Below, one piece after another: positions 4,689-7,732 of a stretch of DNA of 10,944 nucleotides. The notes beneath the pieces are model-generated. The model saw only the letters and a program-made list of their open reading frames with translations. It made no database searches and had not been told where the DNA came from. The stretch spans positions 515,680 to 526,623 of the forward strand of contig NZ_MDDW01000001.1 in the NCBI RefSeq assembly GCF_001854865.1. The letters are read 5' to 3'. The stretch comes from Rhizobium sp. LCM 4573. Lineage in GTDB: Bacteria; Pseudomonadota; Alphaproteobacteria; Rhizobiales; Rhizobiaceae. The translations under genes and the position numbers were made by a program. Numbering within the stretch: the first letter of the stretch is position 1; each line of letters starts with the position of its first letter.

Positions 4689-5729
4689 TCATTCGTCCTC
4701 TGTGAACAAACGAAACTGTGCCGCCTCGAGGTCCTTCGGCGGCTGGAGACCCAGATGTTTCCAGGCATTTGCGGTCAAAACACGGCCGCGCGGCGTGCGC
4801 TGGATGAAACCCTGCTGGATCATGTAGGGTTCTATGATGTCCTCGATGGCGTCCCGCGGCTCGGAAAGCCCGGCCGCGATCGTCTCGATGCCCACCGGCC
4901 CACCGCCGAAATTCATGGCGATCATGCTGAGATAGCGCCGGTCGAGCTGGTCGAGCCCCATATTGTCGACGAGCAGGCGGTTGAGCGCCTCGTCGGCAAT
5001 CTCGCGCGTGACCGCCTCGGCGCGCGCCACCTCGGCAAAATCGCGCACACGGCGCAAGAGGCGCCCGGCGATACGCGGCGTGCCGCGTGCGCGCCTTGCC
5101 ACCTCGCGAGCACCGTCGTCCGTCATCGGCAGGTTCATGAGCCGCGCCCCTCGCCGGACGATCAGCTCCAGTTCCTCAACGGTATAGAAGCTGAGCCGCA
5201 CCGGTATGCCGAACCGGTCGCGCAACGGCGTCGTGAGGAGGCCGAGCCGGGTGGTCGCGGCGACCAGCGTGAACTTCGAAAGGTCGATCTTGACGGAGCG
5301 CGCCGCCGGCCCCTCGCCGATGATGAGATCGAGCTGGAAATCCTCCATGGCCGGATAGAGGATTTCCTCCACCGCCGGATTGAGCCGGTGGATTTCGTCG
5401 ATGAAGAGCACGTCGCGCTCCTCGAGATTGGTGAGCAGCGCCGCCAGATCGCCGGCCTTGGCGATCACCGGGCCGGAGGTCGAGCGGAAATTGACGCCGA
5501 GTTCCTTGGCCATGATCTGCGCAAGCGTCGTCTTGCCCAGCCCCGGCGGCCCAACGAAGAGAACGTGATCCAGCGCCTCACCGCGATTCTTCGCCGCCTC
5601 GATGAAGATTTTCAGGTTGGCGCGCGCCTCCGCCTGGCCGGTGAAATCGTCCAGCGTCTGCGGCCGCAGCGTCGTATCCAGGTCTTCGCCACGCTTTTCC
5701 GGCGTTATCAGGCGGGCGGGTTCATTCAT
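4689..5729 (-). CDS. ruvB: Holliday junction branch migration ATPase RuvB
   Basis: RuvB is the hexameric AAA+ motor that, loaded by RuvA, drives branch migration of Holliday junctions. The 346-residue product has full family length. It shows Walker [10 protein letters not shown] (60-68), Walker B FIDEIH (Asp111, Glu112), sensor 1 AATTR (158-161), a probable arginine finger in LRDRFG (Arg170), and sensor 2 [15 protein letters not shown] (216-230). The C-terminal winged-helix DNA-binding domain follows (about 260-346), with the RGRVLT segment near its end. The ATG at 5727-5729 begins the usual MNEP..LITPE sequence. It is 72 bases downstream of ruvA, and its stop abuts the GTG start of the metallophosphoesterase. 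Assignment is unambiguous. Confidence 0.99.
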
Positions 5730-5801: not shown

Positions 5802-6419
5802 CTATCGCGCCAGCTCCTTCAGCCCCAGCCGGATAAGCTTGGCGCTATCGGCCTCCTCTCCCCCGTTCTTCAACGCGGCGGCAACGGCATTGGCGGCCTG
5901 GTCGCGCGAATAGCCGAGATTGGTGAGCGCCGAGACGGCATCCGCGACAGGCGCGGAGGCCACACCTTCGCCAAGCTCCTGCTTGATGCCGATATTGGCA
6001 GCGGCCTCCCCCGCAAAAGCAGGCGCCTTGTTCTTGAGTTCGGTGACGATACGCACTGCAACCTTCGGACCGACCCCCGGCGCGCGGGTGACCGTCGTTT
6101 TGTCCTGAAGAGCAATGGCGTTGGCGAGTTCGGAAGGCGTCAGCGTCGAGAGCACGGCGAGCGCCACCTTGGCGCCCACCCCCTGCACGCTCTGCAGGAG
6201 GTTGAACCATTCGCGCTCCAGAGCCGAAGCGAAACCGAAGAGCTTGAGCTGGTCCTCGCGCACATAGGTCTCGATGAATAGCACCACCGCCTCGCCTACC
6301 GAACCGACCTTCGAAAGCGTGCGCCCCGAGCAGAAGGCTTCGTAACAGACGCCATGCACGTCCACGAGCAGGTAATCCTCGCCGATCTCGTCGATGGTGC
6401 CTTTGAGCTTGCCGATCAT
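5802..6419 (-). CDS. ruvA: Holliday junction DNA-binding protein RuvA
   Basis: RuvA binds the four-way junction as a tetramer and recruits RuvB. The product is 205 residues, normal for the family. Domain I is an OB fold starting MIGKLKGTI. Domain II carries two helix-hairpin-helix motifs, [11 protein letters not shown] (about 77-86) and [10 protein letters not shown] (112-121). A flexible linker leads to domain III (about 156-205, [16 protein letters not shown]), which contacts RuvB. The open frame runs far upstream (to 6782), but the start is the ATG at 6417-6419, because the family sequence begins exactly there and AAGGAA (6428-6433) lies 8 bases upstream. The ATG overlaps the stop of the vapC-like toxin gene as ATGA, and the ribosome-binding site lies inside that gene, so ruvA translation is probably coupled to toxin translation. 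Confidence 0.98.
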
Positions 6420-6847
6420 CTGGTCTGTTCCTTCATAGGGTGAGTTTCCGGCGTGATCAGCTCGACCATGGGGAAATAATTGCGGTATCCGGAAGGATCG
6501 CGTGTGAGGATCGGGTATCCTCGGATGGCCGCATGGGCACCGATCAGGAAATCCGGAAGCACCCGCTCCTTTCTGCCCCCTCCCGCCCGATAAAGCCGGA
6601 ACGCCTGCGCTGCCGCGAACGCAGCCGGCCAGGGCAAACCTTCCCGCAAAAATTCGGTTTCGGGAAGCAGCGCCTCCACCTCGTCGGGATCGTCGTAGCG
6701 ATAGGAGAATTCGGAATAGATGATCTGGTTTATGATAACGGCACCGCGCCCGGCCGCAGCGAACAGCTGATTGAGCGACCATGAATGCCAGTTTGGGTCG
6801 CGAACGGCGACATCGACCAGCACATTCGTATCGACAAGCGTCGCCAC
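6416..6847 (-). CDS. PIN-domain RNase toxin, VapC family
   Basis: This 143-residue PIN-domain protein is the likely toxin of a type II toxin-antitoxin pair; VapC toxins are Mg-dependent RNases that cut specific RNAs such as tRNA or rRNA. The acidic catalytic set is intact: Asp6 in LVDTNVLVD, Glu46 in IIYSEFSYR, Asp99 in [14 protein letters not shown], and Asp117 in [14 protein letters not shown]. It therefore looks active. The start is a GTG at 6845-6847, only 3 bases after the antitoxin TAA, with no clear Shine-Dalgarno of its own, which suggests translational coupling that keeps toxin below antitoxin. Its TGA overlaps the ruvA ATG. The position inside the ruvC-ruvA-ruvB series is unusual. 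The target RNA cannot be predicted. Confidence 0.9.
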
Positions 6848-6850
6848 CGG

Positions 6851-7105
6851 TTAATCACGATCCCGCGTGATGCGCATCAACGCGTCCGCATCCACGGCCT
6901 GATCGCCGGTTCCCTCCACCCTGCGAAGCGCCTGCATGAAACGATCGAGCCGCTGCCGGTCGGCCTCCATGCGCCGATCCACTTTCGGAACGATGGTAAT
7001 CTTCCCGCCTTCCATAGCAAAGACTACCTCGCTATTGGCTTCAATCCCGGCGAGTTCGCGCAGATCACGGGGTATCGTCACTTGGCCTTTCGATGTCACT
7101 CGCAT
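6851..7105 (-). CDS. AbrB/SpoVT-type antitoxin, VapB-like
   Basis: This 84-residue protein has an N-terminal swapped-hairpin AbrB domain, [21 protein letters not shown]...[15 protein letters not shown] (residues 1-41), the DNA-binding fold of VapB and MazE antitoxins. The C-terminal half is charged and ends [13 protein letters not shown], the kind of helix that blocks a PIN toxin's active site. I chose the ATG at 7103-7105 because GGAGG (7111-7115) stands 5 bases upstream; the preceding in-frame GTG (7106-7108) would be too close. It is 59 bases from the end of ruvC, and the toxin gene follows after 3 bases. It probably represses its own promoter together with the toxin. Pairing with the adjacent PIN gene makes the antitoxin role quite secure. 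Confidence 0.9.
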
Positions 7106-7124
7106 CACGCCCTCCGTAACACGA

Positions 7125-7141
7125 GTAAGAAATATCCTTAC
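7125..7141. promoter_or_regulatory. Imperfect palindrome over vapB -10, candidate autorepression operator
   Basis: The 17-bp sequence GTAAG-AAATATC-CTTAC has perfect 5-base arms and lies across the proposed -10 element of the antitoxin promoter. AbrB-type antitoxins commonly bind short inverted repeats over their own promoters, so this is a reasonable operator for VapB/VapBC. That assignment is inference from position and symmetry. Confidence 0.5.
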
Positions 7142-7157
7142 ATCAAGAACAAGTCAA
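7129..7157 (-). promoter_or_regulatory. Promoter upstream of vapB-vapC-ruvA-ruvB
   Basis: On the minus strand the -35 is TTGACT (7152-7157; CTTGAC with the preceding base, the alphaproteobacterial form). A 17-base spacer leads to TATTTC (7129-7134) as the -10. Transcription would start near 7122, leaving a short leader with the GGAGG of vapB. The -35 lies inside the LexA box at 7147-7161, and the -10 lies inside a palindrome. The -10 is only a partial match, so strength is uncertain. Confidence 0.6.
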
Positions 7158-7161
7158 GAAC
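7147..7161 (-). promoter_or_regulatory. Perfect alphaproteobacterial LexA (SOS) box
   Basis: Read on the minus strand this is GTTC-TTGACTT-GTTC, an exact match to the GTTC-N7-GTTC direct repeat bound by LexA in alphaproteobacteria. It is embedded in two tandem 11-bp units (7143-7153 and 7154-7164) that differ at one base and begin directly at the ruvC stop codon. The -35 of the vapB promoter (TTGACT) occupies the spacer, which is ideal for repression. With 8 fixed bases, a chance match in a 59-bp gap is about 0.2 percent at uniform base composition, counting both strands. Confidence 0.75.
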
Positions 7162-7164
7162 AAA

Positions 7165-7674
7165 CTAACCGGCAAGCACTGCCCGCATTCGCTGGCCACC
7201 CCTGTGATGAGCGTGGCAGATGGCGATGGCCAAAGCGTCGGCCGCGTCGTTGCCGGTAAATGTCGCCTTCGGCATCAGGATCTTCAGCATCATATGGATC
7301 TGCTGCTTCTCCCCATGGCCGACGCCGATCACCGACTTCTTCACCGCGTTCGGAGCGTATTCGGAAACCGGCAACCCGGCACGCGCCGGCACCAGCATGG
7401 CAATCCCCCTCGCCTGGCCGAGCTTGAGCGTGGCGACGGCATCCTTGTTGACGAAAGTCTGCTCCACCGCCGCCTCGTCCGGCCGGTAGGCGTGCACCAC
7501 CTCGGCAAGGCCGTCGTGGAGTTGGCAGAGGCGAGAGGCGAGGTCCATGTCGCCATCGGAAGTGACGGTTCCCGACGCCAGGAACCGCAAGCTGTTGCCG
7601 AGCGTCTCGATAATGCCCCAGCCGGTGCGCCGGAGGCCCGGATCGATGCCGATGATGCGAATCGTCTCTGTCAT
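7165..7674 (-). CDS. ruvC: Holliday junction endonuclease RuvC
   Basis: RuvC is the dimeric, Mg-dependent nuclease that cuts Holliday junctions symmetrically. The 169-residue product has all four catalytic carboxylates in order: Asp11 in [14 protein letters not shown], Glu71 in [11 protein letters not shown], and Asp143 and Asp146 in [11 protein letters not shown]. The segment VGHGEKQQI with its basic neighbours is the usual DNA-contacting part. The ATG at 7672-7674 is preceded by AGGG about 6 bases upstream. It is the first gene of the minus-strand series and is separated from ruvA by a toxin-antitoxin pair, whereas ruvC and ruvA are usually adjacent. The gene upstream is divergent. A one-mismatch LexA box lies 44 bases upstream of the start. 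Confidence 0.98.
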
Positions 7675-7717: not shown

Positions 7718-7732
7718 GAACAAAACAAAAAC
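7718..7732 (-). promoter_or_regulatory. Possible degenerate LexA box upstream of ruvC
   Basis: On the minus strand this reads GTTT-TTGTTTT-GTTC, one mismatch from the GTTC-N7-GTTC LexA direct repeat, 44-58 bases upstream of the ruvC start. The A-rich or T-rich spacer is common in such boxes. A single-mismatch site is much more likely by chance than the perfect one before vapB, so I hold this loosely. Confidence 0.35.

Follow-up and report, generated by a model that had tools for sequence, protein, structure and literature searches.

A putative LexA operator over the -35 element of a vapB-vapC-ruvA-ruvB promoter in Rhizobium, conserved across relatives with different toxin-antitoxin modules

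Toxin-antitoxin (TA) genes share an operon with an SOS repair gene in dinB-yafN-yafO of Escherichia coli. Unlike at the locus described here, the TA genes of that operon lie downstream of the repair gene, belong to another TA family and are combined with another LexA motif. In Caulobacter crescentus, the promoter of the type II TA system higBA contains a perfect LexA site and is repressed by LexA and by the antitoxin, and the insertion of higBA upstream of the unrelated gene higX brought higX under SOS control, according to passages of PMC13384398. The locus of our study resembles this system, as judged from sequence, in that LexA and an antitoxin would meet on one TA promoter in front of a host gene. 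It differs in that the Caulobacter pair belongs to the HigBA family, is described in those passages from a small number of genomes and has a transcription factor as neighbour, not RuvAB (PMC13384398).

The gene order itself was remarked on in Rhizobium leguminosarum, where RL3987-RL3990 correspond to vapB-vapC-ruvA-ruvB and where insertion sequencing found all four genes to be needed for root attachment, with vapB in a different later-stage class than vapC, ruvA and ruvB (passages of PMC11406972). The requirement for all four genes fits a single operon; polar effects would give the same result. The order is the same as in our strain, and the main text of PMC11406972 mentions neither LexA nor ruvC. 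For the ruvCAB promoter, putative LexA sites were described in alphaproteobacteria despite rearrangements, and Vibrionaceae in which ruvCAB is split by insertions have independent LexA sites for ruvC and ruvAB, with ruvAB staying under SOS control; the main-text passages of PMC3323433 that report this contain no TA genes in the operon and no alphaproteobacterial box between ruvC and ruvA. Among the papers we searched on TA systems together with ruv or LexA, we found no description of a box at vapBC-ruvAB or of its distribution; a LexA regulon paper from 2004 may list such sites.

We analysed a stretch of 10,944 nucleotides from Rhizobium sp. LCM 4573 (contig NZ_MDDW01000001.1, positions 515,680 to 526,623), here called the window. 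Profile matches confirmed the gene order read in the first-pass annotation. All on the minus strand, ruvC (7165-7674, PF02075) is followed by vapB, encoding an antitoxin with AbrB/MazE fold (6851-7105, PF04014 above cut-off; ATG at 7105, alternative GTG at 7108), by vapC, encoding a PIN-domain toxin with D6, E46, D99 and D117 present (6416-6847, PF01850 above cut-off), and by ruvA (5802-6419) and ruvB (4689-5729), both assigned by family matches. The pair has the VapBC arrangement of an AbrB/MazE antitoxin followed by a PIN toxin; the NCBIfam VapC equivalog was matched only below its cut-off, with 28 of 80 bits. A search for solved structures related by sequence to VapB or VapC returned none at E 0.01. 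A second VapB-like match, 37% identical, is found elsewhere in the source genome (G000 C11, L253).

The acidic PIN residues are conserved in a set of 115 loci which includes loci chosen for the 15-mer discussed below (L192-L271): E46 in 115, D99 in 114, D117 in 113 and D6 in 115, the last count not being independent because D6 belonged to the rule by which PIN reading frames were picked. Since E46, D99 and D117 are kept in 113 to 115 of these loci, the VapC toxin is probably active. The start codon of ruvA overlaps the stop codon of vapC by 4 nt (ATGA), and because of this junction translation of vapC and ruvA is probably coupled. The same overlap between PIN stop and ruvA start recurs in 33 of the 115 loci, and in 52 the PIN stop lies 12 or 13 nt ahead of ruvA, in a search that allowed distances up to 60 nt and in a set partly chosen for the 15-mer.

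At the junction of ruvC and vapB, the minus strand from 7161 to 7147 reads GTTCTTGACTTGTTC, a perfect GTTC-N7-GTTC repeat as claimed from the first reading of the sequence. The first-pass annotation let it begin right at the ruvC stop codon; it starts slightly later, 3 nt past the TAG at 7167-7165. The end of ruvC just ahead of it (7171-7186) contains a weak terminator-like stem, a kind of site that is no commoner in the window than in shuffled sequence. In the window 0.30 GTTC-N7-GTTC sites are expected and 54 of 200 shuffles contained at least one; over the whole genome we counted 176 sites, compared with 123 for a reversed control. We rejected the bare repeat as evidence by itself because its presence in the window is not significant, so that the case for the box rests on comparison. 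The exact 15-mer is present in a single copy in the source genome.

For this comparison a near set of 137 loci was assembled from 57 genomes of the genus and 80 named loci, of which 127 distinct loci were kept after removal of L106 and L108 (no usable ruvA or ruvC match) and of 8 duplicates. The presence of the box follows the distance between ruvC and ruvA: it was found in 75 of 75 loci with a gap above 350 nt, in 6 of 7 with 130-350 nt and in 6 of 45 with at most 130 nt. All 69 near loci with a PIN gene according to our reading-frame rule have the box. That rule, a D-T/S/A-N/S/C motif, failed to pick up six of the near loci whose gap exceeds 350 nt; these show PIN-like frames that are perhaps broken in L092 and L125. 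On a tree built from RuvC and RuvA of 126 loci there are 7 independent pairs with good support; 5.7 of them agree with the association and none opposes it (median p 0.031, range 0.031-0.0625). The association between box and gap is real, and the independent events behind it are few.

The exact 15-mer occurs in 50 of the 57 genomes of the genus, in all 50 at ruvC, with 0 matches for reversed controls; of the remaining genomes, 2 carry at ruvC a variant that differs by one base, and 5 lack it. The only second copy in the genus (G021 C9, L192) lies in a promoter-like place in a stretch with no ruv match. As a general vapBC promoter element the 15-mer is unsupported in the genus, with this one copy away from ruv. 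As to whether relatives lacking vapBC keep the box, the picture is mixed: 12 of the 52 near loci without a gap above 350 nt keep it, and outside the family it is kept without a PIN gene in 11 of 14 ruv loci, all of which were chosen for the 15-mer. In L219, L249 and L250 the 15-mer stands without TA genes 73-75 nt before ruvA and 977-979 nt after ruvC, and in L021 vapB has an early stop.

A weaker LexA-like box upstream of ruvC, the other site pointed out in the first reading, also stood up to comparison. In the window it reads GTTTTTGTTTTGTTC (7718-7732, minus strand), and 112 of the 127 near loci have, 40-70 nt upstream of ruvC, a repeat that deviates from the motif at no more than one position; 102 of the 112 are GTTT-N7-GTTC. 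A separate and weaker site for ruvC agrees with the description of ruvC as a late SOS gene in Caulobacter (passages of PMC12700426).

Several lines of evidence agree with the view that the junction box is a LexA operator. GTTC-N7-GTTC, as present at 7147-7161, is the form of the alphaproteobacterial LexA operator, and the Caulobacter consensus is (T/A)TGTTC-N6-TGTTC (passages of PMC13384398 and PMC12700426). The source genome encodes lexA (TIGR00498), with a box of its own that ends 47 nt ahead of the ATG, and further GTTC-N7-GTTC boxes lie in front of recA and in the interval between uvrA and ssb. We picked 20 stretches by eye (lexA, recA, AT-rich spacers) out of the first 100 of the 176 genomic sites. 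Of these stretches, 7 adjoin lexA, recA, uvrA/ssb, a PIN gene or a gene for an ImuA-like protein, a ligase or a glycosylase; 2 matched no family, and the scan passed over the other 11. The ImuA-like match is below the curated cut-off of its family. Boxes near an ATP-dependent DNA ligase gene and an HhH-GPD glycosylase gene (L145, L149) likely mark further SOS genes, and a second PIN-domain gene (G000 C3, L146 995-1665), which begins 83 nt past a GTTCTCTATATGTTC box, is possibly SOS-linked. As a control, the recA loci of the genus contain GTTC-N7-GTTC in 24 of 28 readable cases (of 30) and lack it in 4; the boxes lie 190 to 195 nt ahead of a conserved RecA motif and have 23 different spacers. 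This fixed place combined with a free spacer indicates that LexA of the genus reads the two GTTC halves.

At ruvC-vapB, by contrast with recA, the spacer is fixed, and we attribute this to the -35 element that it holds. The candidate -35 element TTGACT (7152-7157, minus strand) falls within the spacer of the repeat, as had been claimed, and a weak -10 element, TATTTC (7129-7134, minus strand), follows in register after 17 nt. A sigma-70 scan of the window did not list the ruvC-vapB promoter. Among the 87 boxes of the near set, whose loci were assembled irrespective of the 15-mer, the -35 reads TTGAC in 85 and TTTAC in 2. The exact 15-mer is present in 82 of them, and the others vary at position 10 (three), at position 7 (one) or at both (one). 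Position 10 is the sole position of the box which is required by neither LexA nor the core -35; the T at position 11 and the bases preceding the box (T in 85 of 87, and one further out T or A in 75 of 87) are accounted for by the Caulobacter consensus. Downstream of the 15-mer come 12 loose bases, after which TA is often found at box position 28, the place of the -10.

A 17-bp palindrome covering the -10 was part of the first reading. The sequence concerned, GTAAGGATATTTCTTAC (7125-7141), does cover it and is only imperfect: 12 of 17 positions agree with the reverse complement, 6 of 8 pairs match and the outer 5-bp arms are intact. We presume that it is the operator of VapB or VapBC. Two operator classes can be distinguished in the relatives by simple patterns, which assigned 99 loci and left out 16 of 115. 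Type I, as in the window, is GTAAG-ATA-TTCTTAC followed by a separate ribosome site, while type II, GTAATACC-n-GGTATTAC, extends over the ribosome site up to the start codon. TA at box position 28 is present in 36 of 41 type II and 11 of 20 type I near loci, and in 6 of 12 near loci without a PIN gene and with a gap of at most 350 nt; the respective counts in a larger set that includes loci chosen for the 15-mer (L192-L271) are 55 of 66, 23 of 33 and 17 of 33.

The operator class follows the TA type. On the VapC tree it requires 3 changes, on the RuvC+RuvA tree 19 (99 loci, FastTree), which means that modules replaced one another at the same position or were sorted out of tandem arrays; the gap class changes 20 times on the RuvC+RuvA tree. 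L197 (1997-3517) contains two complete vapBC modules in tandem, each of a different operator class and with its own 15-mer, and in L193 (1999-3089) a complete box-vapBC-ruvA arrangement is preceded by a solitary vapB that has a box as well. Two boxes each are found in L194-L196, and in L240 (1075-2755) an additional gene of 296 amino acids lies between ruvC and the box-vapBC module. The dual switch proposed in the first-pass annotation, with LexA acting at the direct repeat and VapB or VapBC at the palindrome, is consistent with the palindrome over the -10 and with a class that goes with the TA type; as at higBA, a LexA site and a putative antitoxin operator would share one promoter.

Beyond the genus, the exact 15-mer was found in 143 of 394 genomes of a family sample, representing 51 of 109 genera, against 1 match for the reversed control. 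From these, 59 loci were fetched: 58 have the 15-mer before ruvA, 57 of them preceded by a ruvC in the same orientation, and only L230 has it away from ruvA. A VapC-like match is present in 48 of the 58 (partial in L207), so that not every one has a TA pair. In the order, 23 of 249 genomes have the 15-mer, and all 18 from other families were fetched. Fourteen of the 18 are at ruvC/ruvA, and 11 of these have no room for a PIN gene, the box lying 24 to 319 nt before ruvA; the other three have a TA pair, namely vapBC in two and a Phd/YefM antitoxin with a PIN toxin in L260, where the toxin stop overlaps the ruvA start (ATGA) under the same 15-mer. Some of the TA-less boxes in other families are probably leftovers of TA modules, because antitoxin-like frames persist in L271 and in L295, which is the same place as L262. 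In L263-L265 the 15-mer stands before another gene, which in L263 is ImuA-like, below the curated cut-off; L266 falls outside both groupings.

When loci of the order were sampled irrespective of the box, 5 of 70 had a box in the ruvC-ruvA interval, each of them with TTGAC in the spacer, and 65 lacked a TTGAC-type box, L322 having a different repeat. The 70 come from 76 loci, four having been excluded because of a short contig or of split or very distant matches, along with G455 (L271) and G509 (L254), which had been pre-chosen for the 15-mer and are both at ruv. With 5 of 70 loci, the box as an ancestral element of the whole order is unsupported. In 31 of the 65 sampled loci with ruvC in reach, ruvC and ruvA overlap by 4 nt. 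In three of the sampled loci (L290-L292) vapBC-like genes stand ahead of ruvA without a perfect box; read by eye, L291 and L292 have a one-mismatch GTTG- or GTTT-N7-GTTC repeat in its place. In a class sample, 3 of 190 genomes contain the exact 15-mer, one being the source genome; the stretches from the other two (L342, L344, other orders) gave no ruvC, ruvA, vapB or vapC match and the 15-mer lies there in promoter-like places.

We consider it likely that the box belongs to an SOS promoter on the ruvAB side which was repeatedly occupied by TA modules adding autorepression by their antitoxins. From the sequence we infer protein binding, induction by damage, translational coupling and an effect on RuvAB dosage as follows. 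The 15-mer would be a LexA operator over the -35 of an internal promoter serving vapB-vapC-ruvA-ruvB; LexA would bar RNA polymerase in undamaged cells, and its cleavage would allow transcription of the operon, so that damage probably switches on the toxin, the antitoxin and the repair motor at once. VapB, or VapBC, on the palindrome over the -10 and the start would repress the same promoter, and its autoregulation would therefore also limit RuvAB, the antitoxin level setting how far the promoter opens after release of LexA. ruvC would retain its own, weaker LexA site. In evolution, different kinds of TA modules would have settled repeatedly between box and ruvA; we assign the box to the ruvAB side because it is found before a TA-less ruvA in several families. 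Against this reading stand the weak -10, the imperfect palindrome and the absence of the promoter from the sigma-70 scan, as well as the 65 of 70 loci of the order sample without a TTGAC-type box, the 31 of 65 in which ruvC and ruvA overlap and the vapBC-like genes without a perfect box in L290-L292.

Alternatively, box and vapBC could form a mobile cassette whose SOS promoter arrived with the TA genes and put ruvAB under its control, comparable to higBA and higX in Caulobacter. The strong association of box and vapBC among near relatives would follow from this, the box on each tandem module of L197 suits a box that travels with its cassette, and the lone vapB of L193 has its own box as well. 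However, the 15-mer also precedes a TA-less ruvA in other families and in L219, L249 and L250, and within the genus only one exact copy lies away from ruv; we regard the cassette as a doubtful explanation. It is likewise conceivable, though in our judgement improbable, that vapBC is a mere passenger of a promoter which is simply that of ruvAB: selection would then keep box and -35 for ruvAB only, and the TA pair would neither sense damage nor limit RuvAB. The 12 of 52 near loci with a box and no gap of vapBC length and the early vapB stop in L021 fit such a passenger. The retention of E46, D99 and D117 in 113 to 115 of 115 loci, class-specific operators maintained at promoter distance and the repeated gain, loss or exchange of modules (20 gap-class and 19 operator changes on the ruv trees) argue against it.

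That the 15-mer is bound by a factor other than LexA, or is just an extended -35, we think very improbable. The invariance of the spacer, which is free at recA, is unusual for a LexA box, but the second GTTC sits in the promoter spacer, where polymerase does not read it, the 15-mer matches the alphaproteobacterial LexA repeat, the recA control speaks for LexA, and the ImuA-like gene of L263, below the curated cut-off, stands behind the same 15-mer.

LexA-plus-antitoxin control of a TA promoter, LexA sites at ruvCAB and the gene order in R. leguminosarum are already known. What is new is the combination of a nearly immutable LexA/-35 element with several kinds of TA modules and a core repair motor, across families. 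We speculate, with considerable reservation, that the junction of ruvC and ruvA permanently serves as a docking site for unrelated TA pairs and that antitoxin autorepression acts as a rheostat of RuvAB after damage. If this is true, pairs of at least two VapBC operator classes, and a pair of the Phd-PIN kind, have repeatedly come to lie between one nearly immutable LexA/-35 element and ruvA, in tight connection with ruvA. Why bacteria retain chromosomal TA pairs is still debated, and here such a pair stands under a putative SOS operator in the operon of a recombination motor. The locus makes it possible to ask whether antitoxin autorepression sets the dose of RuvAB and whether loss of the pair costs survival of DNA damage, and neighbours which have the box together with zero, one or two TA modules offer natural replicates.
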